Shown: one piece after another, positions 43,552 through 58,725 of the stretch | Numbering within the stretch: position 1 is the first letter of the stretch | Layout: each line of letters begins with the position of its first letter | From: Chloroflexota bacterium | GTDB taxonomy: Bacteria; Chloroflexota; Anaerolineae; Promineifilales; Promineifilaceae | Reading direction: 5' to 3' | DNA: 64,000 nucleotides | NCBI GenBank assembly: GCA_003696605.1 | Contig: RFGV01000576.1 | Coordinates: 1-64,000 of the forward strand | Made by a program: the position numbers and the translations under genes | The notes under the pieces: model-generated | What the model was told of the DNA's origin: nothing | Databases searched by the model: none | What the model saw: the letters and a program-made list of their open reading frames with translations, nothing else

Positions 43552-45987
43552 TTAATTGCCCGGACAACTGATAAATCCGGCGATTTCTGCATAAATCTGG
43601 CTTAAATCGTCTGCTGTGGGTGAGTGATAAAAATGAGTCGGGTCAGTGGCAATGGTTTTGAGCAAGGTTTCGTTGATGCTATCTCCCAGGCCAATGGTGT
43701 AGATGATGATGCCAGCAGCTTTGGCAGCATTGGCTTCGGCAATAACTGGTTCTTCGCCTACGCCAAAGGGTTTGCCGTCGGTGAGCAGAATGATAACGGC
43801 CGTGTGCGCAGGGTTATGACGCCCACTACTCAACTCTTGTCTGGCTGTTGCCAATGCCAGATCGATGCGTGTCAGTCCTTCAGCTACCAATGATTGCAAA
43901 GACGCAATTAGCGCAGCTCGATCGGAAGTAAGGGGGACAAGCACCCGTGCTTCACTGTCAAAATCGATTATGCTGGCCTGATCCGGTGGCAGATTGATAA
44001 TGTTGAGGAAATCGGTAGCAGCAGCTTGTGCGGCGGCCAGTCTGGAGGTGTTGCCGCTGCTTGTCGGGTTAGCCATACTGCCAGATGAATCGAGTAACAG
44101 AATGATGTCGGCCGGGTGGCTGGTGGGAATGCAGTAATTTAGCTGGACGACTGGCAGAAAAACAAAGCTGGGGGTTGGCGGAGTTGTGACGTTCATTGTG
44201 CCCGTAGCCTGCCCTACGCCACCGTCGTCGTCTGTGATGGTAAGGGTAATGAGGTATTGACCGGTTTGATTGAAGGTGTGGCTGGCGGTGAGTGTGTTGT
44301 TGGTGGTGGCGCCGTCTCCAAAATTCCAAAGGATTGTGTGGGTGTCGAGGGTGCCGGGATCGGTGAATGTGCCGGTAAAAACGGCCGTTTCTCCTATCAG
44401 TACATCCCAGCTATCAGCCATGAGTGTCACCTGTGGTATCGCGTTGTTCACTGTCACGGTAGTTGTATCTGTCGCTGAACCGGTGTTGCCTGTTACTTGC
44501 ACTGAGACAGGATAAACGCCATCATCTCGATTGCTTGCCGAAAAAACGACAGTGACGGCCGTGCCATCATCAAACAGGCCGTCGTTGTCCAAATCCCAGG
44601 CATAACTCAGACTTCCACCGTTTGGATCAAACGAACTGCTTGCGTCCAGAGTGACATTGCTTCCTTCTGTGATAGTGTATGGCCCCCCGGCATTGGCCGT
44701 GATTCTCTCTGGGGTAGCTGTTGGGGTAAGTGTGGGTGTAGGCGAAGAGGTGGGCGTAGATGTGGGTGTGGGAGAAGAAGTCGGTGTGGGTGTAGGCGTA
44801 GGTGGATTGGAGACATCAACCAGCAAAACGGCCGAATCTGTTAATCCCTCGTTACTTGCTACATACGCTGTATTAAGAATAGTCGTTCCTGCCCCCAGAC
44901 CAGCATCTACCCGCACTGTCAGAGTAACTACGGCTGAATTATCTGAAAGAAGCGTCCCCACATTCCACGTAACAACCCCATTAGCATCCGGACCAGAGAA
45001 GGGAGAACTGGCGGCGACAAAAGAAGTGCCTGCTGGAATCGTGTCGGTAATGGTAATGCCAGTGAGAGTGTCCGTGTAAAAGTTAGATGCTGTGATTGTA
45101 TAGCGAAGCAAATTTCCGGCGGGGACGGGATTCAGATCGGCCGTTTTCGTCAGGCGCAAGCGCACACAACCCGTCAGCCATGCCACCGCCTGTCGTCCGG
45201 CGCGAGTATTATCTTGCAAGGCATAGGCATTACTAAACTCCCCCAGCCAGTTACTATCTGTTGCCAGCAAAACACAACCTGAGCCATCACGAAACGCTGC
45301 CATTACCGGCATGTTAGCTGGATTAGCATCAGCATCGGTAATTACCAACGCATTTGTGGCCGGGGTAAGCCACGCACTGCGGAGCATTTCAAATGCTGTA
45401 ACGCCGTCAAAAATAGGATGTGTGCCGAAATTATCGACCTGATAAATAACCCAGCTATTATTAGGCCCGGACGGATCAGCATCTGTTGGATCAATAACGG
45501 CGTCATCTCCCAGCAACGTGTATCCATATTCCTGAAAAAGAGGTTGTGTGTCTCCTTTTAGAAAGCCCCAATCGCTGGAGATCATCAAGCCATGTCCGGC
45601 CGCCGCCCAATTGCGAAGCATAGTAGCATCGGTGGTTGTATAGGGTGAGGACAGGCGATTGTTGCCTGCCAGCCCCATGATGATGAGGATGTCCACGCAA
45701 GAGGGAATTGTTCCGGCAGAAAGATCGACTGTACCAACAGTGTAGCCGAAAGAGACAAGTTCATTAAGGAACGTCGTGTAGTCATCAGGGGATTGGCCAC
45801 GAGAAATCTCAAAAGCGGCTACGGGAGAAGAGGCATTGGTGCAGTTGATGGGATCTGAGATGGCGAAGGGAGAGAGGGAGGCGGTTTGGCCAATGGCGGT
45901 GGTGAAGGTAATGGCTGCCAGGAGGAGTAAGCCAGCTATTAGCATGGATAATAAACCGGTTGTTAATTTGGTTGTTTTTTCTGGCAT
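43552..45987 (-). CDS. Secreted multidomain protein: N-terminal glutamine-amidotransferase-like region, DUF11, two PKD, VWA
   Basis: An 811-residue exported protein. The signal peptide (LLSMLIAGLLLLAAITFTTA) is followed by a region of about 230 residues resembling DUF4350/amidotransferase-like domains (VDILIIMGLAG, GHGLMISSDWGF). Next come a DUF11 repeat (residues about 276-390, LTKTADLNPVPAGNLLRYTI), a Pro/Thr/Ser linker, two PKD domains (about 430-605) and a C-terminal von Willebrand A domain (about 620-811) with complete MIDAS elements DSSGSM and LTDGKP. No cell-wall anchor is visible at the end. Probably an adhesin or matrix protein. No ribosome-binding site precedes the ATG. The relation to the copper locus upstream is only by position. 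Confidence 0.85.
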   Translation of the reverse strand: MPEKTTKLTTGLLSMLIAGLLLLAAITFTTAIGQTASLSPFAISDPINCTNASSPVAAFEISRGQSPDDYTTFLNELVSFGYTVGTVDLSAGTIPSCVDILIIMGLAGNNRLSSPYTTTDATMLRNWAAAGHGLMISSDWGFLKGDTQPLFQEYGYTLLGDDAVIDPTDADPSGPNNSWVIYQVDNFGTHPIFDGVTAFEMLRSAWLTPATNALVITDADANPANMPVMAAFRDGSGCVLLATDSNWLGEFSNAYALQDNTRAGRQAVAWLTGCVRLRLTKTADLNPVPAGNLLRYTITASNFYTDTLTGITITDTIPAGTSFVAASSPFSGPDANGVVTWNVGTLLSDNSAVVTLTVRVDAGLGAGTTILNTAYVASNEGLTDSAVLLVDVSNPPTPTPTPTSSPTPTSTPTSSPTPTLTPTATPERITANAGGPYTITEGSNVTLDASSSFDPNGGSLSYAWDLDNDGLFDDGTAVTVVFSASNRDDGVYPVSVQVTGNTGSATDTTTVTVNNAIPQVTLMADSWDVLIGETAVFTGTFTDPGTLDTHTILWNFGDGATTNNTLTASHTFNQTGQYLITLTITDDDGGVGQATGTMNVTTPPTPSFVFLPVVQLNYCIPTSHPADIILLLDSSGSMANPTSSGNTSRLAAAQAAATDFLNIINLPPDQASIIDFDSEARVLVPLTSDRAALIASLQSLVAEGLTRIDLALATARQELSSGRHNPAHTAVIILLTDGKPFGVGEEPVIAEANAAKAAGIIIYTIGLGDSINETLLKTIATDPTHFYHSPTADDLSQIYAEIAGFISCPGN

Positions 45988-46127: not shown

Positions 46128-48068
46128 TCACCAATCTGAAAAATCAGGAGGAATCTTCACTGTTTGTTGGGCCAGATGGGATACGGGTTGCTGGTGGTTG
46201 TGCCAGACATAAACGGCCGTTCCTGCCAACGTAGCCAGCAACATCAACATAGCACCAATAGTTAACCAGGGTGCCCATTGCTTGTTAGAGATTAGTGGCT
46301 GGTCAGAAGATTGTGCTTCGGGCAATGTCCATTCATAGCGAGCCACCGCATCCGCTATTCCCATGCGGCGCACCACCACATCTATTTGCCAGCGGCCAGG
46401 CAGGCGAAGCTGGTTACCGCCAAGCCGATACAATCCTGGTTCATTGGTAGCTTCTGCTGCTACCGATTCTATTCCCAGGTCTTGTTCCAGGTAGGTAAAT
46501 CGCACAATGACGCGCAAAACTTCAGCCGGGGCAGGCCGACGAGTGCTTACTGCGCGGATGTTCATGACATTTGCACCAGGCCGATTTGGCTTGATGGAGA
46601 GCGTTATCAGCATATCGTCAACAAGCTGGGTGGCTGTAGTGGGGATTTCTTCAGGCGGGGTGGGAGCCTGGCTGGCGTTGGGGGCGGCTGTTAGATAGGC
46701 GGTGAGTAGAATAACGCCGAGGCCAAGTGTGGCTTCAATGAGCATGAGGCGAGGCAGCCAGCGCCATGAGAGGGGTGTCCATCCCTGAGGGCGGCGGAGC
46801 AGCCGGGCGGGGATGGCAGCAAGGGTGGGATGCAGGAGGATGGCGTTGAGTGCGCCGAAGCTGAGAGTGAGGAGCAGAAGCAGGGTTTTGAGGAACAGAG
46901 AACGGCCGTAATTGGTCAACAATAGGGCGTCGGGTGTGGCAACTTGTTGTCCCAGACTGTATAGGCCGGTGGCGGCGAGGATGCCTATGCTCAAGGCAGC
47001 CAAACGCCCAAATGGTTGCCATCCTGACTGAAGTAAAGACCGCAAGTGATTTTTATTTTGTCTGGCTGGCGGCAACAGGGTCATTAGCAAGGCCAATAAA
47101 CTGCCTATCCAAAGGGCAGCGGCAAGCAGATGAAGGCTGTCGGTTATGATAGCTAAAGTGGTGTTGGTGGTGAGGGCTGCCGCATGACTGACAAGAGATT
47201 GGGTGAGGATGAGGGGGAAGGTGAGCAGGAGTAACAGGTGGGGCAAGGGGCTGGATGGACTGGGAAGGTGGTTGCGGTTAATTCGCCACAGGGAGAGAAT
47301 GAATGCAAGCCAGATGGTCTGACGTGCAATCCAGAGGAGGCCGGGGCGGCTTTGGGTAAGCCATTGGCTGGCAATGGTCCAAATGGGGGTGGTAGGGGGA
47401 AGTTCGGGGCGCAAAACGGCCGTTTGCCACATTATCCAGCCAATTCCAAGCCCTAACCCACTAATGGCACACATATAGGCCAGCCGCCACGCCCGCTGAC
47501 GTGCTTGTTGGTAGGTGGTAACAATTGTGGGGGGGGAGACGGGTGGGGTCAGAAGAAATGCGAGAATGGTTAAGGAACCTATCAGAAGGAGCAAGATGGT
47601 GAAATTGGCCCAGCGCAGGGCGACTTCAGGCCAGGGAACGGCCGTTTTAGGGATGGTTGCTTGTGCCTGGTTTAGGTCAGCTGTTGTGCCAATGCCAAAA
47701 ACGATGAGCCCTTGCGTAAAGTGACCGTCACTTTGAGAAAGCACCTTCCACCATACGCTATAAACTCCCTCTTCCAGAGGTGGCAGATCCAGGATAAGCA
47801 GATTGGGTTCGTTGGGAACAGTGCGAATGCCGCGCAGGGGAACGGCCGTGCCGGTAACGTCCAGCAGTTGTGCTGTGCTAAATTCCGGGCTGATGGGTTC
47901 GGTGAGCCAGAGACGTACCTGGTTGGGTGGTTCAGATAAAATTGCGTTGTCAGCTGGTTCAGATCGAGCCAGTATTGCATGGGCGGCGACAGGCGACGTG
48001 GGTATGAAGGCAAAAAGGAGTAGAATCATTGTGAGAACAAGTGTGAATTTCAGGGGGGATTTGCTCAT
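46128..48068 (-). CDS. CopC-CopD fusion with C-terminal YtkA-like domain
   Basis: A YcnJ-type copper protein of about 646 residues. The signal peptide ends at VAA so that the mature chain begins HAILARSEPADNAIL, the N-terminal His of the CopC copper site. The CopC domain (to about residue 140) is followed by eight or so transmembrane helices of the CopD domain (about 165-480), then an extracytoplasmic beta domain (about 505-600: VDDMLITLSIKPNRPGANV) and a last helix. It probably takes up or handles copper for the oxidases of this locus. The ATG overlaps the CopC gene stop as ATGA. Confidence 0.88.
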   Translation of the reverse strand: MSKSPLKFTLVLTMILLLFAFIPTSPVAAHAILARSEPADNAILSEPPNQVRLWLTEPISPEFSTAQLLDVTGTAVPLRGIRTVPNEPNLLILDLPPLEEGVYSVWWKVLSQSDGHFTQGLIVFGIGTTADLNQAQATIPKTAVPWPEVALRWANFTILLLLIGSLTILAFLLTPPVSPPTIVTTYQQARQRAWRLAYMCAISGLGLGIGWIMWQTAVLRPELPPTTPIWTIASQWLTQSRPGLLWIARQTIWLAFILSLWRINRNHLPSPSSPLPHLLLLLTFPLILTQSLVSHAAALTTNTTLAIITDSLHLLAAALWIGSLLALLMTLLPPARQNKNHLRSLLQSGWQPFGRLAALSIGILAATGLYSLGQQVATPDALLLTNYGRSLFLKTLLLLLTLSFGALNAILLHPTLAAIPARLLRRPQGWTPLSWRWLPRLMLIEATLGLGVILLTAYLTAAPNASQAPTPPEEIPTTATQLVDDMLITLSIKPNRPGANVMNIRAVSTRRPAPAEVLRVIVRFTYLEQDLGIESVAAEATNEPGLYRLGGNQLRLPGRWQIDVVVRRMGIADAVARYEWTLPEAQSSDQPLISNKQWAPWLTIGAMLMLLATLAGTAVYVWHNHQQPVSHLAQQTVKIPPDFSDW

Positions 48069-48583
48069 TTTTGATTCCTTGAAGATTGCCATTGCCACAA
48101 TCCTGCTATCAGTATCAGAATGGAGCCGCCGATGGCCAGAAGTACCGGCAGGGAAACGGCCGTTTCATCTTCTGCCTGCATAGATTGAGTCAAACTGGTT
48201 GTTGCTGGTGGCGTTCCTACCGTAAAATGAAACACGCCAGTCGTAACATCCCCATCTACCAAAACTGCCCGCCACGAAACCGTATAAACACCATCAATGA
48301 GTACAGGCACAGTTACCTTCATAGAGGCGTGGTCTGGATCTGTCAGGTCAAGTCCACCATCGCCGTTATCCACTTGCCCTCCTGTACTGTCCAACACACG
48401 CATTGTGCTGCTGGCGTCCAGTTCCTCGTTGAACCAGGCTCTGATGACCGTTGGCGATGAATCCAGATGGGCGCCATCTGGCGGATCAGACCGTAGTAAT
48501 TTGACAGAATGAGCATAAGCAAAAGGTGAGATGATCATTTGTGCCAGAAGCAAAAGAACCAGATACAGGATTTTGCGGGTCAT
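48065..48583 (-). CDS. CopC-domain copper-binding protein, membrane anchored
   Basis: A 172-residue protein. The signal peptide ends FAYA with mature His (HSVKLLRSDPPDGAHL), and the second ligand region is DPDHASMKV, the usual Cu(II) site of CopC. A C-terminal transmembrane helix (LPVLLAIGGSILILIAGLW) anchors it, facing outward. Translation is coupled to the CopC-CopD gene (4-base overlap) and it follows the His-rich protein gene by 14 bases. Confidence 0.9.
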   Translation of the reverse strand: MTRKILYLVLLLLAQMIISPFAYAHSVKLLRSDPPDGAHLDSSPTVIRAWFNEELDASSTMRVLDSTGGQVDNGDGGLDLTDPDHASMKVTVPVLIDGVYTVSWRAVLVDGDVTTGVFHFTVGTPPATTSLTQSMQAEDETAVSLPVLLAIGGSILILIAGLWQWQSSRNQK

Positions 48584-49171: not shown

Positions 49172-51109
49172 CTACGGTTGTTCATAGACCTGGATATTGC
49201 TAAACACACTTTCGCCAGCAGCAGCCGCATCATCATCATTCGTAAAAGTCAGATACAACATACTGCCGGTATAGTAGTTACCTACCGGAACAACAAAATG
49301 CTGCACCCCACTACCCGTGTATGTATGAAACGCTTGCAATCCCCACGTTTGCGTGCCGTACAACTGGAAAGTCAGGTTACTGCTGATATTGTCATCTGTA
49401 TCAAAGCCAATACCATGTATTTCACCTTCAACATTGCTTTCAAAGTCAAATTCCAGTACTGTGTTGGGGGTGACAGTGTAGGCAAAAGCCACTTTCTTCC
49501 AGCCATTGCCGGTAATACGCAACGTGTCACCACCATTCTCCACACTGACCAATGCCCCCACATCCTGCGAACCTCCGTAAGACATCACTGCATATGGTGT
49601 TCCATTCACATTCACCATGAGCGGTGGGGCTTCATACACCTTGATATTGCGGAACAGACTTTCTCCGGCGGCTGCGGCATCATCATCCATGACAAACACC
49701 AGATCAGTCATTGTGCCTGTATAGAATTGCCCAACCGGGATAGAAAAGCGTACCCAGTTCGGTGCGCTACCGGCATAGTTAAAGCTGGCGTTTTGGATGC
49801 CCCAACCCTGTGTGCCATACACCTGGAATATCTGAATGGGATTGTTGATAACGTCATCGTTGTCAAAGCCAATCCCGTGAATTTCTCCTTGAACACTGCT
49901 CATAAAGTCAAATTCGATAACAGTGTTGGGAGTGACGGTGTAGGGGAAGGGGATCTTTTTCCAACCGTTGCCTACTAGGTGCAAGGTGGCGCCATTGTCT
50001 TCAATGGTAGCTGTGGCCGCGGCATCTTGTGTGCCGCCATAGCTGGCCAGGGTGTAGTTATTAAAGTTGACAAATGGGGCAATGTTGATGAATGTCATCA
50101 TGCCGCCGGGAAAATGGGCAGTGCTGGTGGCATCTCCATTGGTGATGTGAAGTTGGCGATTGTACAAGGCAAGTTGACCACCATCGAGGTTGTGAGGCAT
50201 GGTGGCAATGAGATCGGCCGTTTGTCCTGCCGGGATAGTATGTGCCACCATATCAACAGGAAAGTTTAACGGATACCCATCGCTGGCGATATGTTTCTGG
50301 TGTGTGCCTAGAATCATCATTGTGTCGTTAGTAAATCCAGCGTTCAGATACCGCAACAGTACTCGTTCTCCCGGATCGGCATCAATTGGGTCTGTATCTG
50401 GATAAGCTTTGCCATTTATCAGCCAGTAGAGCGGTTTGTAATCCAGCAAATTGAAGTTGGCTGGATCGGCATTTAAGTTGGGATCTATTTCGCTCAGGAG
50501 TAGAACAGCCTCTGTATCGTAGGCGGTTTCGGGGCTGGCGTAGGCCTGTCCAGGGGTGGTGTCGTGAACAATGAGGGCTCCATATAGCCCCATGGCAACC
50601 TGAATGGCTGAATTGACGCCACTTTCATAGAGGAATGTGCCCGGACGAGTTACTGTGAAGCTGTAAGTTTTGGTACTACCGGGAGCAATGCCGGTCATAT
50701 CGGGAGGTTCGTCTTGTCCGGGGAACAGGAGGGAGGTGGCTTCGGGTAGCTCGTTGTATAAAGTGATATTGAGTGTGTCTCCTGTTGTGGCTTCAATAAC
50801 AGGACCTGGCAGGCTGGCTGTTACGGAATTGTCCGAACAGGGTGTGTTGGCGGGCTTTAGGGCGTATCCCCAAATGGGAATGGTGGTATTGTCAGGCATG
50901 GTTGTGTTGCCTGCTTTGGCGCATAGTTCGATGTTGATTGTGGTTGGGGCAGCCATTGGTGTAAGTGGAGTGGGTTGTGAGGGGCTGGGTTGGAGGGGGG
51001 CTGGGGCTGCACTGATGGTGTGTGGTTGCCAGGGTGTATTACCTAATGCCAGCATGAGTAGTAACAGAATGAGCCCTGAGCTGAGAATGGTTGTTATTTT
51101 TGTACGCAT
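49172..51109 (-). CDS. Multicopper-oxidase-like secreted protein without copper ligands, with two C-terminal repeats
   Basis: About 645 residues. AAGGAG lies 9 bases before ATG 51109; starts at 51130 and 51154 are also open. A signal peptide (TTILSSGLILLLLMLALG) leads into two cupredoxin-like domains aligned with the next two proteins (TRPGTFLYESGVNSAIQVAMGL; YWLINGKAYPDT). The positions of the HWH, HCH and HxHG motifs are occupied by other residues (SLLFPGQ, YESG, TMMILG), so no copper site is expected. The last about 290 residues are two tandem beta-sandwich modules of about 145 residues, each with NGWKKIxFxYTVTPNTVxEF and DDDAAAAGES. Structural or binding role likely. Confidence 0.82.
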   Translation of the reverse strand: MRTKITTILSSGLILLLLMLALGNTPWQPHTISAAPAPLQPSPSQPTPLTPMAAPTTINIELCAKAGNTTMPDNTTIPIWGYALKPANTPCSDNSVTASLPGPVIEATTGDTLNITLYNELPEATSLLFPGQDEPPDMTGIAPGSTKTYSFTVTRPGTFLYESGVNSAIQVAMGLYGALIVHDTTPGQAYASPETAYDTEAVLLLSEIDPNLNADPANFNLLDYKPLYWLINGKAYPDTDPIDADPGERVLLRYLNAGFTNDTMMILGTHQKHIASDGYPLNFPVDMVAHTIPAGQTADLIATMPHNLDGGQLALYNRQLHITNGDATSTAHFPGGMMTFINIAPFVNFNNYTLASYGGTQDAAATATIEDNGATLHLVGNGWKKIPFPYTVTPNTVIEFDFMSSVQGEIHGIGFDNDDVINNPIQIFQVYGTQGWGIQNASFNYAGSAPNWVRFSIPVGQFYTGTMTDLVFVMDDDAAAAGESLFRNIKVYEAPPLMVNVNGTPYAVMSYGGSQDVGALVSVENGGDTLRITGNGWKKVAFAYTVTPNTVLEFDFESNVEGEIHGIGFDTDDNISSNLTFQLYGTQTWGLQAFHTYTGSGVQHFVVPVGNYYTGSMLYLTFTNDDDAAAAGESVFSNIQVYEQP

Positions 51110-51144
51110 GGGAAGTTTCTCCTTTTTCATCGGACCCTTCCTTC

Positions 51145-52419
51145 TTATTGGCATCCGCCGGGCGGATCGATTCGCCAGAGGGTTGCCAGACCGCCGAAGC
51201 CTTCATCGAAGTTTTGAAATTCGTTGAGGGCATGGCTGTGCCAGGGGAAGTAGAATTCGCCACATTCGTTATAGGAGGTGTTGCCGACTAGCAGGTCACC
51301 TTTTTGGCCCAGGTAGGGGCTGCCGCTGTAGAAGGTGGCGCCGTCTTTGGTGACCAGGTTGTAGAGGCCGGGGAGTTGTACGGGGATGGGGTTGTTGTTT
51401 TGATTCCATGCTTCGACGTCGAACCATTGGGCCAGGAGGTCGAAAGTTTGTCCGGAGCCAACGGTGGTGGTGAAGCTTTCGAAGGAGGTGTTTTCGCCGT
51501 TAGGACCACGGAGTAAACGGCCGTCTCGGCCAATAATAGTCAGGTTGTTGCCGTGTGGATGGAAGGGGTGGTTGACCATACCGGCATTTGCATATCGTAC
51601 AAGCGCTGGTAGTGGGTTGTTGGTGGCATCGTATGGTTCGATGCGGACGAGTGCGCCATAAGGTTGGTTTGGTAACCAGGGGGCGAAGTTGGGGGCGATA
51701 GTGTCGGGGAAGGAACGGCCGTTTATCGTCCAATACCGATCATGCATCGTCGTCACATCATACGGCAAACCATGTTCCACTGCATAATGCAACTCCGGAT
51801 CCACATCATGAATCAGCAACAAATATTCCCGATCCGGATTAAACTCTGTGGTCGGGTCATTATAAGCAAAATTTGCTCCCATAGCCGGACGCACAACCAG
51901 CGCCCCAAACAATCCCATTTGCACCTGTTTATGCGGTTCTGTACCACTTTCATACAAATACGTACCTGGGGCAGTCGCCACAAAAGTGTATGTCACACTG
52001 CCTCCTGGGGGAGCTTCTGCTGTTAGCAGGCCTGGCACACCTCCAGTTGCTGTGACTCCTTCCTGTCCTGGAAACACAATAGAAACCGGTTCGGTTAAAT
52101 CATTTTGCAGATTTATAACCACTGTGTCCCCTTCATTGACACAAAGTACAGGACCAGGTTGTTGAAATGCGCCACCCAAACCATCATTCATATTTGCAAA
52201 CCCCCAATAGTACAGGCTATTGCCATCAGGGGTGCTGGTGTACCCGTCGGTAGTTCGCAAATCAAATGTTGGGCCATAGGTGCAAACCATCGTTGTACTG
52301 CCAGCTGCTGCGGCACGTCGTACTCTGCCCCCAAATCCCACCAGCACAATCATTGCCAGTAGAATCAGGCTGAATAGTAAAATGCCGGGCCTGGCGTGTT
52401 TTTTCACTTTTACAGACAT
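51145..52419 (-). CDS. Multicopper-oxidase-like protein with only domain-2 copper ligands
   Basis: A 424-residue exported protein (N-terminal helix ILLFSLILLAMIVLVGFGG). The first cupredoxin-like half has lost its ligands (SIVFPGQ where HWHG is expected; YESGTEPHKQVQMGL where HCH is expected). The second half keeps VNHPFHPHGNN (His284, 287, 289) and, near the C-terminus, FPWHSHALNE (His394, 396), but with Ser at the type 1 Cys position. AAAGGAG precedes the ATG. By itself it could hold at most part of a trinuclear site; its neighbour holds the complementary set. Confidence 0.85.
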   Translation of the reverse strand: MSVKVKKHARPGILLFSLILLAMIVLVGFGGRVRRAAAAGSTTMVCTYGPTFDLRTTDGYTSTPDGNSLYYWGFANMNDGLGGAFQQPGPVLCVNEGDTVVINLQNDLTEPVSIVFPGQEGVTATGGVPGLLTAEAPPGGSVTYTFVATAPGTYLYESGTEPHKQVQMGLFGALVVRPAMGANFAYNDPTTEFNPDREYLLLIHDVDPELHYAVEHGLPYDVTTMHDRYWTINGRSFPDTIAPNFAPWLPNQPYGALVRIEPYDATNNPLPALVRYANAGMVNHPFHPHGNNLTIIGRDGRLLRGPNGENTSFESFTTTVGSGQTFDLLAQWFDVEAWNQNNNPIPVQLPGLYNLVTKDGATFYSGSPYLGQKGDLLVGNTSYNECGEFYFPWHSHALNEFQNFDEGFGGLATLWRIDPPGGCQ

Positions 52420-52466
52420 CGTTTGCCACTCCTTTTATCGGAAGAGAGTTTTGTACCCACTTCTGA

Positions 52467-53771
52467 TTATGTAAATGTCTCGTTTGGCTTGGTTTGTGGG
52501 GGCAGAGGTGAACCGTTATAAACGCGCACCTCTGTAACCATGCCGCCAAGTCCTGGTAATCCGTCGTTTGTCTGGGCGAAATAGTTCCGGTTTTTTAGCA
52601 GGTAGACGTTGTAAGTTCCTATGCTGTCTGTGCCAGTTTCGGCTGTGGGATCAAATGCCGGTGCTTCGAAGATGACATCGCGTGCCTCTCCAGGCCCAAT
52701 GTAAATGGTGTTCGTATAGTAGCTGAGATCTGAACCGTCAGGGCTGCGTAGCAGCGTTGCATCGTGCCCAACTACTTTCATGGGAATACCGGTTAATTGC
52801 ATGGCGTGTTGTTCATAGCCAAGGTTGGCGAAGCGTAACAGGATTTTTTCGCCGGGATTTGCCTGAATAAGTGACGAAATGGGCTGGTAGGGCAGGGATG
52901 GGTCGTTGCTGGGCTTGACGGTATCCGGATAGGCACGGCCGTTTATGATCCAGTAATTCGGCTTATAATCTGACCAGACAAAATCTTGTACCTCTTCCAG
53001 CAAGTCGTGAGGACGGGTATCAATTTCATTTAACATCAGCGTCACTTCCCGATCGTATGCTGTTGAGCCATCCCCGTCGTTGTAACAATATTTGCCTGGG
53101 GGCAAACTGCCTGTTCCGTTATTCTGTAAGGGGCGAACAAACACAATACCATTCATCCCCATTTGTACGTGTTCCACATCCTCAAAATGGCAATGGTACA
53201 TATATGTTCCCGGATGTTCGGGATGGAAGAAGTAGGGAAAGTTTCGGGCAACCGGCACAGCGATGGATACTTCTGGCACACCATCAAAAATGGCAACTGG
53301 ATTGCGAAAACCATGCCAGTGAATGGTGTGAGAATCGTCCAAATCTGGGCGGAATTGGAATCCCAGGTTGGTGAGAGTCAGATACACTTCATCCCCTTCA
53401 TTCACATCCAGAATAGGGGAACACATTTGCACTTTGCCTTTGTAGGCGGCGATGACATCTCGAATTGAGGCGTTAGGATCGGCTTCGACAAAACCGAAGG
53501 TGTATAACGGCCGTGTTCTGCCTGGCAGCAAAATGTGCCCATCCGTAGCGGCCAGCCGAATATTTGTGCCCTGTACAACAGTAGAGGCTGCTGGCTCAGG
53601 GGCAACTGGTGCAGCCACTTGAGAAGCCGTACTTGTTGCTGCCAGTTCTCGTAGCTTGTCCGCCCGTGCCAGCACACTGGCTGCTGTTAGTACCAATGCA
53701 CCGCCACCTCCCAGTCCCAGGCGCAGAAATTGTCGCCGATTTAGTTTGGGTGGTTGTTTTTTCTTGTTCAT
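52467..53771 (-). CDS. Tat-exported multicopper oxidase with domain-1 ligands and type 1 site
   Basis: A 434-residue protein beginning MNKKKQPPKLNRRQFLRLG, a twin-arginine signal, with GGAGG 10 bases before ATG 53771; the longer frame to 53885 is not credible. Domain 1 has HTIHWHGF (His148, 151, 153) and YHCHFEDVEHVQMGM (His193, Cys194, His195, His201, Met206), a type 1 copper site of the kind in bacterial laccase and nitrite-reductase relatives plus half of a trinuclear site. Domain 2 (RFANLGYEQHAMQLTG) lacks the HPxHxHG and second HCH motifs. The reaction is unknown; metal or phenolic oxidation is possible. Confidence 0.87.
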   Translation of the reverse strand: MNKKKQPPKLNRRQFLRLGLGGGGALVLTAASVLARADKLRELAATSTASQVAAPVAPEPAASTVVQGTNIRLAATDGHILLPGRTRPLYTFGFVEADPNASIRDVIAAYKGKVQMCSPILDVNEGDEVYLTLTNLGFQFRPDLDDSHTIHWHGFRNPVAIFDGVPEVSIAVPVARNFPYFFHPEHPGTYMYHCHFEDVEHVQMGMNGIVFVRPLQNNGTGSLPPGKYCYNDGDGSTAYDREVTLMLNEIDTRPHDLLEEVQDFVWSDYKPNYWIINGRAYPDTVKPSNDPSLPYQPISSLIQANPGEKILLRFANLGYEQHAMQLTGIPMKVVGHDATLLRSPDGSDLSYYTNTIYIGPGEARDVIFEAPAFDPTAETGTDSIGTYNVYLLKNRNYFAQTNDGLPGLGGMVTEVRVYNGSPLPPQTKPNETFT

Positions 53772-53862: not shown

Positions 53863-56800
53863 TTATGGTATGGTGATGGTCGCACTTAGTACGCTATTGG
53901 TTGTGTCAAAGGTGTAGCCTCCTAGTGTGATGTCATCAATTGTGATGGTGTAAGTGCCTAATCCATCTTCTGCCATGAAGCGCACAAGTCCTTGTCCGTT
54001 TGTGCCTTCATTTAGTGTGAGGGGGGTAGTGGTATTGGGCAATGTCCAGGTGACATATACGCGTGCATTTTCTACTGGTATGTTGTTTTCATCGCGTACG
54101 GTGATGACTGCCCGAACACGGCCGTTATTACCACGCACAAATGGTGTCAAATCAATACTTGTCACACGCAGACAATTTGTTGTGCAGCCTGCTGGCGGTG
54201 GTGGTGTCGGTGTGGGTGGGGGCGTAGGCGTGGGTAATGGTGTGGGTGTCGGTGGTGGTGGCGTTGGTGTTGGTGGTGGCGGCGGCGGTGTTCCTGTCAA
54301 TTCATCTGCGCCAACGTCAAACAGGCCATTTTGTGGTCTGGATTCACCATCAATATCATCTGCCGGGGCAGCAATTGGCCCCAGTGAAGACACACCTACA
54401 TCAACAGCTGGAGAACCACCTGTCAGATGATAGTTGCCCGGCAAAGCGGCCGTCAGATCAACTGTCACATATACCACAGTGATAAAGTTTGGCTCCATGC
54501 GGAAGGCTACTGCATCCAATACCGTATCATAAGGTGATACAAACTGTGGGTTGACACCGATCATGTTGCTGGGATGACCGGTAAAAGAGGCAGGTGTAAT
54601 CGTCCCAAACACTTCCATGTCCATGATGCTGTTAAATACCAGTTGCAGGCCATCCCAGGTATAAGCCTGATTTTCCCAGAAAATGTTGTTGAACATGACT
54701 GGATCGGGGAAACCAGGAGCAGCTGAGCCATAGGTATTTACCAGATAGTTGGTGAATTGGGTGCTATAAGCCTCGGCTGTTAGTCCAGCGGCGTGTGGTA
54801 ATCCGTCTGAGTCTTCGGCAGTGGAAGTGTTGACGTTTTTGGCGATCGTATTGTTCATGATGAGAACGTCTGAGGCATCGTCGAGGGCAATGCCACCGCC
54901 AAAATCAGTGGAGACATTGTTTACGATAATGTTGTTGAAGATGCGGATTCTGTAGTCCCAGGGCTGTAAGAGCCTGATACCGCCCCCATCGTCATTGGAC
55001 AGGTTGGATTGAATCAGGTTGTTGTAGATGTCCACTTCGCCAGATCCAACGGTAAGGTTAGGTGCTGGTTCGTTTGGATTTTCGGGGTTGAAGAATTGTT
55101 CACCAGCGATCAGGATGCCACCACCTTCATCAAAGGCATTGTTGTAGTAGATTTTGTTGTGGTGGATGCTGCCCTGACGACTGAGACCGAAGTGAGAGAT
55201 ACCACCACCGTACTCGGCCGAATAGTTGCCGCAAATTTCGTTGTAGGCGATTTCGTACTGGTTGGCACCATTGAAGATGCCGATAGCACCGGCCAGGCTG
55301 ATGCCGCCGTTGTTGAGGATACGGTTATGGTGAATGCGGATGCGGTCGTTGTTGTTGTCGCCCCGATATGGTTCGCCAATGGTGATGCCGCCACCGAAGT
55401 TGCCGCCGTTGCTTTGGATGATGTTGTTGCTGATTTCCAGATAACGGCCGTTTACATCTACATGCAACCCGCCACCAACATCTTGCTGATCACGTCCACC
55501 TGTAATCTTAAATCCATCAATTTGCGGATTAAACAGCGGCCCAAACGTATTAGGTGCACCGGTAACAATAATACTTTCCACTGCAAACCGTTCATCCAAT
55601 ACCGAGCCGCCTGTACCCAACGTTGGCTCACCTGGCCCAACGCCCTGCAACTTCACACGCCCCTTATTCAGCGTAATACTCTCATAGTAAACACCCGGAT
55701 TTACTACAATCAGCGTATTCCCAAAAGCCGCATCAATAGCATTCTGAATCGGGGTAGCCGCGGGATTTGGATCAGGATACACATTAACAACAGTTGGGTT
55801 ATAACCCATTCCCAACACGTGGAACGTCAACCCATTGACCGTACTCAGACCATTATCGGCCGTAATCATCAACTGTCCCGCCCCTGCAGAAAATCCCGGA
55901 GGAATCGTGACATCCAGCAGCGTATCCGACCACGAATTTACCAACAACGGCACACCATCAATCGTTACAGAACCACTCCCCTGTGTCGCCCCAAAATTCA
56001 CACCGGTAATCGTAAACGAATCCCCGACACTGCCATAAGGCTGAGATACTGCCCATAACTCAGGTGTACCATCCGGCAAATTACATTGCGCCGGTTGGTT
56101 AAACTGCCCCCCTCCACCAGCAGTAAATGCAGTAATAGGGAACAACGCCACATCGGCATACGTTGTCTTACCCGGCCAGACATCAAATGTAAACGTCAAT
56201 GTCTGATAATTGGGGTTATAGCCAGGGTTAGGATTACCTGGATCCCCCGGATCGTTGCCCACTACATGATAAATAGCCGGACAAACACCGCCTGGTGTTG
56301 GGCAATTTGCCACAAAAGTGGATGGGAGCAACACCTCAAAAATACCATTCTCATCCGAATACACTGTAGTGATTAGCCGACCAGTAAAATCCCGAATTCC
56401 TACAGGCGTGAACGGAATCCCCCGCTTCTCACCGTAGTAAATAAAGTTGGGATCGGTTTCGATATTCAGGTCATCCAGCAAGAAGCCAAAAATTCGACCT
56501 GGAATGGGCACGGCATTTTCCGTTAACAAGAAGAAATCTGCCGCCGCATTTTGTCCTTCTTGTAAAGTAACAATGCGTTTGGAGCAGTCTCCACCAGAAC
56601 AGCCTGCTGCGGGAATGTTAATAGCTGGCCCATTTGGGGTTACCTGGTTTCCATCCGACGTGTTCACATCAGAATCTTCCAGCACCTTAAAGAATGGAGG
56701 GGGCACAACCTGAACAACATAGTTCCCTGGCGGCAATCCTGTTACTTCTGTTGCTCCTGGCGCACCATAGTATGGTGTCCAGTAACTATTGAACGCGTAG

Positions 56801-58725
56801 CCACCATCAAACACACCATCCTTAACTTCATTGGATATGTTGGGAACTTCTACGCACTTTGGACCAAGATCTAGCGGATCAGGAACGGGCAACCCATTTG
56901 CATCCAGATAATCACAATTGGTTGGATGCTGCCAGGCATCAGTTTGAGTTTCGTTAAGCAAGATAGTGCCGGTTTCGTCGTAGAGACGAACAGTGACATT
57001 GGGAACGCCCGGTTCATAATCTTCTGCGGCTGCAAGTTGGGCATTTGTTTCGTTGCGCATTGTGGCGTAGTAAACGATTCCGGATATGCCGCCGTTTTCG
57101 CCAGGCAAATAGTTGAATTTGCCCCAATCAATAATGCTCCGCTTGGCTGCCCACGTTAATTCGGCCAGAGTAAGGACATCCGGATGGACAGATTTGATGA
57201 GGTTGGTGTTGTATTCATCATGGACAGATGCGCCACTGGTCCCCATACGGCCGAATCCTACTTCAGCAACAGCAAACTTTTCTAACTCGAAGACTTCGGG
57301 GAATTCGTAGTAGCCGTTTTCGTCAGTTACAGTTGTGTATTGGATCGAACCGTCACGGAATCGTGTGTCCAGATCAACACGAGGAATACCCGGTTCGCCT
57401 GGATCTTTGATGCCGTTTCGATTTTCATCCAAAAATACATAGCCGGAAATCCAGCCATACCATCGTGGGATTCCAAATTCTCCCATATCAACGACGCCAC
57501 CGTTTACACTGCTGTCAACGGTAACGGTGAAGAAAGAGATGATGTAATCCAGTGGTTCATCCCAAACAACAAGCTGGTAGACACCATCAGGGACATTGTT
57601 GATAACAAAACTGCCATCTGGATTGCCTCGCCCCAGATAAACTTGTTGGTCGGTTCCGCCGATGTCTGTCAGAGCTATCCAGGGGCGATCTACGGGATCG
57701 CCGAGGATTAGGGGGGCTGTGGGTGGAATCCATTCGATGACAGTTTTGACGGTTCCCATGATTGTGCCTGAGCCGGGCGTATCGTTGGCTGGACAAGTGT
57801 CGTTGGGATCTCCGAAGGTGCATCGCTGGACGAAGCCAATCCAGACCATTGCTTGTTGAAAGCCTTCTCGGGGGCTGTAGCCTGTGTTTCCTTCTTCAAC
57901 CCATGCGTCGATAACGTGAGTGCCCTCGATGGTGGTGGTTTGGATCCAGTCGTTTTCCTGGCCATCGGGTGGTATGGCGATGACTTCGTATTTGTTGCGG
58001 CCCAGGTTTGGGATGACCAGATCGCCGTTGGCGTCGGTGTAGCAAATACCGCCTGTGCCGGGGATGGGGTCGCCCAAGGGGGTGCTGCCGTTGGGGTTGC
58101 CATCGTATTGAGTACAGAGTGGGTTGCCAAACCAGTCTACGGTGACTTCGCCGGATCCGTCTTCGATAATGACGCGAAATCCTTCGAGTCCTTCTTCACG
58201 GGGGATGTCGTCTTCGCCGTTAACAGGGTTGTTGTCATGGAAGACGTGAACGCGGATTTTGGAGAGGGGAAGGGGCTCGGGGACGAGTTCAATGATTACT
58301 GTGCCGGAGTCGTCTGGCAGGCGAATGTGTTTGCCTCCCATTTTGTAGCCGTCGGCACGAACGGAGATGAGGTAACGGCCGTCATCGAGTGTAAGCGATG
58401 AGCTGGTATCGTCTCCCATGGCTACCACTGGACTGTAACTGGCCATTGGTTTCAGGGAGGGATGTTTGGCAGGGTCCGGATCAAATGGATCGCCGGTGTT
58501 ATCTTCATTGACCAGATAGGCGTAGGTGGTGATGAGGGGGCCGGTACCAGGAGGTGCGCCAGGTACATATTCGCGTACTTCGAGAGTAATGGTAGAGGCT
58601 GATTTGACGGCACGTTGTGAGCCAAATAGTGCCAAAATCAGCAGGAGGAGAACGAACATGAGTCGGCTTAACCAGAGCCGACGCAGAGGAACTGTTTTTG
58701 TATGTATGGTTGTTTGTGCATTCAT
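53863..58725 (-). CDS. Giant secreted protein with SdrD-B-like, TIG, parallel beta-helix and Ig-like domains
   Basis: A 1,620-residue surface or secreted protein. The signal helix is at residues about 18-38. The first about 880 residues are a series of carboxypeptidase-regulatory/SdrD-B-like beta domains (GWISGYVFLDENRNGIKDPG near residue 430; others with DxxGxY strands). A TIG/IPT domain lies at about 885-965 (GDSFTITGVNFG). A right-handed parallel beta-helix covers about 990-1340, with many NNxxxxN turns such as IYNNLIQSNLSNDDGGGIRL. A Pro/Thr linker (about 1478-1512) and a Big-1-like Ig domain end the protein. AGGAG lies 7 bases before the ATG. Within the copper-oxidase operon it could be the extracellular scaffold or the substrate-binding partner. 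Confidence 0.87.
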   Translation of the reverse strand: MNAQTTIHTKTVPLRRLWLSRLMFVLLLLILALFGSQRAVKSASTITLEVREYVPGAPPGTGPLITTYAYLVNEDNTGDPFDPDPAKHPSLKPMASYSPVVAMGDDTSSSLTLDDGRYLISVRADGYKMGGKHIRLPDDSGTVIIELVPEPLPLSKIRVHVFHDNNPVNGEDDIPREEGLEGFRVIIEDGSGEVTVDWFGNPLCTQYDGNPNGSTPLGDPIPGTGGICYTDANGDLVIPNLGRNKYEVIAIPPDGQENDWIQTTTIEGTHVIDAWVEEGNTGYSPREGFQQAMVWIGFVQRCTFGDPNDTCPANDTPGSGTIMGTVKTVIEWIPPTAPLILGDPVDRPWIALTDIGGTDQQVYLGRGNPDGSFVINNVPDGVYQLVVWDEPLDYIISFFTVTVDSSVNGGVVDMGEFGIPRWYGWISGYVFLDENRNGIKDPGEPGIPRVDLDTRFRDGSIQYTTVTDENGYYEFPEVFELEKFAVAEVGFGRMGTSGASVHDEYNTNLIKSVHPDVLTLAELTWAAKRSIIDWGKFNYLPGENGGISGIVYYATMRNETNAQLAAAEDYEPGVPNVTVRLYDETGTILLNETQTDAWQHPTNCDYLDANGLPVPDPLDLGPKCVEVPNISNEVKDGVFDGGYAFNSYWTPYYGAPGATEVTGLPPGNYVVQVVPPPFFKVLEDSDVNTSDGNQVTPNGPAINIPAAGCSGGDCSKRIVTLQEGQNAAADFFLLTENAVPIPGRIFGFLLDDLNIETDPNFIYYGEKRGIPFTPVGIRDFTGRLITTVYSDENGIFEVLLPSTFVANCPTPGGVCPAIYHVVGNDPGDPGNPNPGYNPNYQTLTFTFDVWPGKTTYADVALFPITAFTAGGGGQFNQPAQCNLPDGTPELWAVSQPYGSVGDSFTITGVNFGATQGSGSVTIDGVPLLVNSWSDTLLDVTIPPGFSAGAGQLMITADNGLSTVNGLTFHVLGMGYNPTVVNVYPDPNPAATPIQNAIDAAFGNTLIVVNPGVYYESITLNKGRVKLQGVGPGEPTLGTGGSVLDERFAVESIIVTGAPNTFGPLFNPQIDGFKITGGRDQQDVGGGLHVDVNGRYLEISNNIIQSNGGNFGGGITIGEPYRGDNNNDRIRIHHNRILNNGGISLAGAIGIFNGANQYEIAYNEICGNYSAEYGGGISHFGLSRQGSIHHNKIYYNNAFDEGGGILIAGEQFFNPENPNEPAPNLTVGSGEVDIYNNLIQSNLSNDDGGGIRLLQPWDYRIRIFNNIIVNNVSTDFGGGIALDDASDVLIMNNTIAKNVNTSTAEDSDGLPHAAGLTAEAYSTQFTNYLVNTYGSAAPGFPDPVMFNNIFWENQAYTWDGLQLVFNSIMDMEVFGTITPASFTGHPSNMIGVNPQFVSPYDTVLDAVAFRMEPNFITVVYVTVDLTAALPGNYHLTGGSPAVDVGVSSLGPIAAPADDIDGESRPQNGLFDVGADELTGTPPPPPPTPTPPPPTPTPLPTPTPPPTPTPPPPAGCTTNCLRVTSIDLTPFVRGNNGRVRAVITVRDENNIPVENARVYVTWTLPNTTTPLTLNEGTNGQGLVRFMAEDGLGTYTITIDDITLGGYTFDTTNSVLSATITIP

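Follow-up and report, generated by a model that had tools for sequence, protein, structure and literature searches.

Results

Organization of the gene cluster

The window analysed here, a 64,000-nt stretch of DNA from a Chloroflexota bacterium of the Promineifilaceae (GCA_003696605.1, contig RFGV01000576.1, positions 1 to 64,000), carries on its minus strand a series of genes transcribed in the order 1620-aa protein, B, A, C, P5, CopC-like protein and CopC-CopD fusion. Gene B (52467..53771) encodes a protein with a Tat-type signal (a weak match to TAT_signal) and two cupredoxin domains (Cu-oxidase_3, E 4.6e-14); domain 1 contains the ligands of a type 1 Cu and of the first half of a trinuclear site, and domain 2 contains no ligands. 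Gene A (51145..52419) encodes a two-domain cupredoxin, predicted to be exported, in which domain 1 is ligand-less and domain 2 provides the second trinuclear half, without a type 1 Cys. Gene C (49172..51154) encodes a third paralogue, proposed here as a structural third subunit, in which both cupredoxin domains lack copper ligands and are followed by C-terminal beta-rich repeats. Each of these three ORFs has its own export signal region and a Cu-oxidase_3 domain above the Pfam cut-off, and the products are mutually paralogous (31%, 32% and 29% identity over ~290-330 residues). The best PDB relatives of B are 2zwn and 3g5w, which are type C two-domain multicopper oxidases (2dMCOs).

The C-terminal part of C (49172-50100) consists of two tandem beta-rich repeats of ~140 aa each (motif GEIHGIGFD.DD) that follow the cupredoxin domains; across loci this extension is very variable in length, ranging from almost none to >1000 aa, and is Big_13-like in some.

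The gene upstream of B (53863..58725, minus strand) encodes a surface-type protein of 1620 aa with SdrD_B, TIG, CarboxypepD_reg and beta-helix-like regions, possibly a scaffold or substrate partner. Downstream of C lies P5 (48598..49161, minus strand), whose 187-aa product contains one likely membrane helix and a conserved GGGMIDLRYQ..DPDKA...HDHA domain and has no match above the cut-off in Pfam or NCBIfam. It is followed by genes for a CopC-like protein (48065..48583, minus strand; Pfam PF04234) and a copper-handling CopC-CopD fusion (46128..48098, minus strand; Pfam PF04234 and PF05425). Downstream of these copper genes, positions 43552-45987 encode an exported protein with DUF11, PKD and VWA domains, homologues of which are found near few clusters only.

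Partition of the copper ligands between B and A

In domain 1 of B, the motif H148-T-I-H151-W-H153-G (53310..53330, minus strand) supplies the type 1 His and two trinuclear His, and the motif H193-C194-H195...H201...M206 (53154..53195, minus strand) supplies two further trinuclear His together with the type 1 Cys, His and Met. At the site of the lost HxxHxH in domain 2 (HAMQLT, 52791..52808, minus strand), where B proteins show no trinuclear ligand pattern, the window protein reads EQHAMQLTG, and the second HxH of that domain is missing as well. The reverse holds for A: its domain 1 reads VSIVFPG and YLYESGTEPHKQVQMG at the two corresponding places, with ligands absent from both, and its domain 2 carries the motifs H284-P-F-H287-P-H289, followed by G (51553..51570, minus strand), and W-H394-S-H396 (51232..51240, minus strand), Ser395 taking the place of the type 1 Cys. 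Type 1 Cu ligands are therefore confined to domain 1 of B (H148, C194, H201 and M206), the domain-2 motif of A having no Cys.

A sequence-only reading of this DNA had described the ligands of one multicopper oxidase as split between two adjacent genes, and its particulars hold: both ORFs lie on the minus strand where it had placed them; B has HWH and HCH (H151-W-H153 and H193-C194-H195) and lacks the domain-2 motifs; Cys194, His201 and Met206 are correctly assigned to a type 1 site; and A has HPFHPHG and WHSH and lacks the domain-1 motifs and the Cys. The two proteins do together make up the complete ligand set of one multicopper oxidase, as it had supposed, with all the ligands of domain 1 coming from B and the remaining four His from domain 2 of A. 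The description of the locus as an adjacent pair, however, captured only part of it, since the third adjacent paralogue, C (49172-51154), was overlooked.

This division is kept far beyond the window. Among alignable B proteins (n=78), H-x-x-H-x-H-G is found in 77, HCH in 77, the Cys in 78 and the type 1 His/Met set in 77-78, and none has an HxH in domain 2. Among A proteins (n=81), the first domain-2 HxH is kept in 80 (H287 in 81/81, H289 in 80/81) and the second, H394 and H396, in 81/81. The type 1 position ahead of the first HxH, occupied in the window by the non-conserved H284, is unconstrained (Tyr in 49, His in 16, Phe in 7, others in the remainder), the type 1 Cys position is Ser, Asn or Val in the A proteins compared, and in all 81 the ligand positions of domain 1 are taken by Ser, Phe, Gly and similar residues. 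Two search patterns served to find A loci, and one of them includes the first His of the second HxH, so that the conservation of this His is partly imposed; the other ligands are unaffected. Neither ligand set is present in either cupredoxin domain of C. At essentially all loci, no single polypeptide contains all four trinuclear HxH motifs (B has two, A two and C none), and the six domains of B, A and C contain one complete ligand set. The partition of ligands between B and A is far from chance.

Distribution and gene order

An orthologue of A is present in 10 of 52 genomes of the window's family, and in all 10 it is flanked by B and C in the same order, one of these genomes having the B-A-C set divided over two contigs. 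A profile scan of genome contigs with the A alignment returned 107 related stretches, from which 80 loci were retained; all 80 contain A, 78 also contain B and 74 contain C, the order being B-A-C throughout, and each missing B or C coincides with a contig end. The hosts include, besides Chloroflexota, members of the Actinomycetota (Kribbella, Micromonospora, Cryobacterium, Humibacillus, Phycicoccus and Actinotalea) and Pseudomonadota (Methylobacter and Methylococcaceae), as well as one Deltaproteobacteria MAG that is assigned to Myxococcota. Among 400 genomes sampled evenly from the phylum, strong matches to A and strong matches to B are found in the same nine genomes. Separate occurrence of the two genes, which would have told against a shared enzyme, was not encountered: B lies directly upstream of A wherever the contig reaches, and no orthologous A without B was found in the 10 family genomes, the 80 loci or the nine strong-match genomes of the 400 sampled. 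Nor do the 80 loci include any natural B-A, A-C or B-A-C fusion.

The conservation of gene order extends to both sides of the B-A-C set. B is preceded by a homologue of the 1620-aa protein in all 64 loci that leave room for one, a count that includes five loci flagged as absent by the script, in which the protein is present and the stop-to-stop ORFs overlap. P5 directly follows C in 54 of 57 loci. CopC-like matches occur near 15 of the 80 other loci and CopC-CopD-type matches near 25 of 80; being near only a minority of clusters, these genes are best regarded as optional neighbours. A subtilase gene near the cluster was ruled out as a conserved partner, being identified by its catalytic motif in only 6 of 57 loci.

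Two genomes (G449, the source of locus L072, and G296) each contain the B-A cluster twice. In a Methylococcaceae MAG, a complete single-chain type C-like oxidase (L122, 12415-14088) is encoded on the same contig as the split cluster, apart from it.

Selection and coupled decay

In close pairs, dN/dS ranges from 0.04 to 0.30 across A, B and C, with values of 0.07-0.30 for the ligand-less C; all three genes are under purifying selection. The partition is broken at a single locus, L084, with LTIQWRG and HCR in B and HTD in A. This locus is informative because the B and A halves have decayed together; if losses were independent, such a coincidence would be expected about once in 78. The ORFs at L084 (8465-12201) remain open despite the loss of the B domain-1 ligands and of one A domain-2 ligand, and the cluster, to judge by its sequence, is possibly an inactive derivative.

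Complementary splits in other lineages

Complete single-gene type C oxidases are found in one Chloroflexota family (L133-L135), which, with L136, L137, L155 and L156, we take to be Ktedonobacteria-like. Two genomes of this family contain tandem genes, one with domain-1 ligands only and the other with domain-2 ligands only (L136/L137; L155, L156). In one genome of another family, a MAG, the halves occur as a natural fusion (L138, L154) comprising four cupredoxin domains and a fifth, C-terminal plastocyanin-like domain (L154, 572-3019, minus strand). The first domain of this fusion has HTIHLHG at 195 and YHCH at 240, the fourth has AHAMHLHG at 643 and FHDH at 694, and the second and third are dead. 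There is no obvious third paralogue in the tandem and fusion cases, so a third subunit is perhaps not essential in general.

A phylogenetic tree recovers each of A, B and C as a clade of its own (100% bootstrap), nests the tandem copies among single-gene oxidases and joins the two halves of the fusion as sisters. The tree was rooted with one distant outgroup and some of its branches are long; a 40-row alignment with C-only rows, in which MAFFT had placed the A of B-A rows onto C, was discarded. AU tests reject the grouping of A with tandem-A (p 1e-6), B with tandem-B (p 0.002), tandem-A with the C-terminal half of the fusion (fusion-C, p 0.018), tandem-B with its N-terminal half (fusion-N, p 0.028), B with fusion-N (p 0.014) and A with fusion-C (p 5e-5). 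Because tree placement and AU tests separate the three cases, complementary ligand loss seems to have occurred three separate times.

Structure models

The chains that were modelled are artificial: orthologues with the neighbouring genes in frame were joined by reading through their stop codons, and the chains do not represent the window's own pair; read-through served as a modelling device, and no biological read-through is claimed. An AlphaFold B-A-C chain from L055 gave a mean pLDDT of 76 and a pTM of 0.78. A B-A chain from L044, whose A and B are ~72-73% identical to those of the window, gave a pLDDT of 83.7 and a pTM of 0.85, disorder being confined to the leader and linker. Since a pair of unlinked bodies should score far lower, the latter value indicates that AlphaFold packs A against B confidently; this predicted placement comes from an artificial chain and includes no distances between the half-sites.

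Among the matches listed for the B model, the nearest folds are the type C 2dMCOs 3g5w (Z 31.6) and 2zwn (Z 31.4), and C also matches this type of fold (Z 31). The 50 matches listed are two-domain proteins or nearly so, and ring order cannot be derived from the VIA-align ranges. When all domains were aligned sequentially to ceruloplasmin and factor VIII chains with Foldseek, TM reached only 0.21 to 0.28, from which it follows that the ring order is not sequential (that is, B domain 2 against A domain 1 is excluded). The B-A-C model superposes three domains on the Thermus three-domain laccase (TMt 0.71-0.72, 737-750 columns); which domains these are was inferred from alignment length, as Foldseek gives no ranges. 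A span of 737-750 columns fits A1-A2-C2 or B1-B2-A2 and does not fit B1-B2-C2, and either of the fitting sets would imply that A domain 2 meets B domain 1, provided that the assembly is a closed ring. For the B-A model, the superposition on the Thermus laccase covers two domains only (TMt 0.49), a value that probably arose through the aligner using A domain 1, and 6xiz alone spans the whole chain (TMq 0.35); by itself, this model therefore does not fix the ring order.

Discussion

What is observed is the split of the ligands and its conservation, the order of the genes, their paralogy and the purifying selection on them, the joint decay at L084 and the independent recurrence of the split. On this basis we consider it very probable that A, B and C assemble into an A:B:C heterotrimer of pseudo-threefold symmetry, its only type 1 Cu lying in B and its only trinuclear site being shared by domain 1 of B and domain 2 of A. 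The earlier inference of a heteromeric oxidase with its site at the interface of two different polypeptides is thus supported, strongly so by the related genomes (invariant split, synteny, co-occurrence, coupled decay and recurrence) and also by the confident placement of A against B in the models, in the absence of half-site distances; a heterotrimer is more likely than a dimer, as the ligand-less third paralogue C is always next in the cluster. A physical complex, its ring order and oxidase activity are all inferred, as is the 1:1:1 stoichiometry, which is taken from the gene set; there is no biochemical evidence for any of them.

In 2dMCOs, the trinuclear centre is built from domain 1 His of one monomer and domain 2 His of its neighbour (PMC13151041). 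By the proposed mechanism, the three paralogous two-domain cupredoxins would join into one 2dMCO-type heterotrimer, with A domain 2 facing B domain 1, B domain 2 facing C domain 1, and C domain 2 facing A domain 1. Because the three subunits differ, only one of the three interfaces has both half-sites, and the A-domain-2/B-domain-1 interface would be the only one metallated, its trinuclear cluster held by four His from B and four from A. The type 1 Cu of B (H148, C194, H201, M206) would take up electrons and pass them across the H193-C194-H195 bridge to the A-completed cluster, where O2 would be reduced to water; C and the ligand-less domains would be structural. The enzyme would be exported, and probably acts on the cell surface together with P5 in the membrane and the large protein encoded upstream of B.

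2dMCOs are known as homotrimers (PMC13151041), and A, B and C might each form one, without any shared trinuclear site, B serving in type 1 electron transfer, the His of A in metal binding or copper storage, and C as an inert structural protein; such an arrangement would suit proteins that each comprise a full two-domain cupredoxin fold and whose ORFs each have their own export signal region. We nonetheless regard it as unlikely, as B retains four domain-1 trinuclear His that are needless for a type 1 site alone, A retains exactly the complementary four, the genes are inseparable, losses are coupled at L084, and the split has recurred in independent lineages, one of which has fused the halves. 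Alternatively, A and B alone may constitute the enzyme (as A2B, AB2 or a 1:1 four-domain assembly, for example), with C a separate accessory. The Ktedonobacteria-like tandem pair and the fusion manage the split with two copies only, and the fold of the B-A chain is predicted with confidence in the absence of C (pTM 0.85), which keeps this option possible; it is rendered doubtful by the paralogy of C to A and B and their common two-domain fold, by its position directly after A wherever the contig reaches, by the purifying selection acting on it, and by the pTM of 0.78 obtained when all three bodies were folded together.

The nature of the site and its activity can be questioned as well. Copper nitrite reductases have the same fold and are close structural matches, and the interface might accordingly hold a nitrite-reductase-like type 2 site rather than a trinuclear one. 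In NirK, however, a single type 2 Cu at the interface is bound by three His and accompanied by an Asp/His catalytic pair, whereas here two HxH pairs are conserved on each side, giving eight His, four per side, in an oxidase-like pattern; the best matches are the type C oxidases 3g5w and 2zwn, and TIGR02376 scores 33 to 39 bits against a cut-off of 296. A type 2 site is accordingly very hard to credit. The absence of any ligand in C and the loss of the B and A sites at L084 could also be taken as signs of a decaying copper oxidase family composed of inactive pseudoenzymes, a reading to which we give the least credence of all, given that the ligands are kept in nearly all of the ~80 loci across phyla and that dN/dS is 0.04 to 0.30 in all close pairs.

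To our knowledge, the trinuclear cluster of known multicopper oxidases lies within one chain or between identical chains. A literature search, with most subscription journals outside its coverage, found no multicopper oxidase whose site is split between gene products, and under the same limits a search for heteromeric or heterotrimeric multicopper oxidases found only the fungal heterodimeric laccases, in which the small subunit is unrelated, and the Mnx complex. The proposed A:B:C enzyme is nearest, by sequence and fold, to the type C 2dMCOs (the Nitrosomonas europaea blue copper oxidase 3g5w and the metagenomic laccase mgLAC 2zwn), which likewise have two cupredoxin domains, a type 1 Cu in domain 1 and a domain-2 HxH without Cys, the pattern of A and B combined, and in which the trinuclear site lies between domain 1 and a neighbouring domain 2, as proposed for B and A. 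In contrast to type C enzymes, which are homotrimers with one gene and three sites, the halves here belong to different paralogous genes, the third paralogue is site-less, and only one site per trimer is expected; the A:B:C assembly thus fails the single-chain or homotrimer criterion for type C, though it would work in the same way.

Six-domain oxidases (ceruloplasmin, hephaestin, MnxG) are not close sequence relatives, and they differ in being one polypeptide where the present cluster has three ORFs with the type 1 Cu in domain 1 of one subunit. They do share the proposed pseudo-threefold ring of six cupredoxin domains with a single trinuclear site, and they retain one such site only (PMC3600357). 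The manganese oxidase MnxE3F3G is, as proposed for B-A-C, a multicopper oxidase complex of several subunits encoded by several genes; its multicopper oxidase is MnxG alone, the small proteins MnxE and MnxF having no known homologues (PMC5622069), and the complete site in MnxG contrasts with the absence of a complete site from every B-A-C subunit. An evolutionary parallel is offered by the unrelated c-ring paralogues of the fungal V-ATPase, in which duplication and complementary loss produced an obligatory hetero-oligomer (Finnigan et al. 2012, told in PMC7982386), a reciprocal loss that fits the pattern of constructive neutral evolution (PMC7982386); there binding interfaces were lost, and here catalytic metal ligands.

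Taken as a whole, the data make it reasonably probable, if less assured than the heterotrimer itself, that the cluster encodes the first obligate heterotrimeric multicopper oxidase, with one two-polypeptide site per A:B:C ring, and that complementary site loss after duplication took place at least three times in Chloroflexota-related lineages, one of them ending in fusion. The proposal is directly testable, because the cassette is present in cultured strains (Kribbella, Micromonospora, Cryobacterium, Humibacillus and Phycicoccus). If it is correct, motif surveys that demand all four motifs in each protein would miss such enzymes, and the five-gene cassette, with its two uncharacterised conserved partners, would be a lead to a new extracellular oxidase system, the substrate of which is unknown. 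It would also provide a clear natural case of catalytic complementary degeneration, in which constructive neutral evolution has acted on metal ligands rather than binding interfaces, and a living counterpart to a stage that is frequently drawn, and not seen, on the way to six-domain oxidases such as ceruloplasmin. The A:B:C assembly would reach the one-site economy of the six-domain enzymes with three genes, as a ceruloplasmin ring left as three genes, and loss of redundant sites could then come before fusion in the passage from a homotrimer to a ceruloplasmin-like ring. For the multicopper oxidases, this would amount to a new architecture, an active site common to two gene products and under selection in several phyla.
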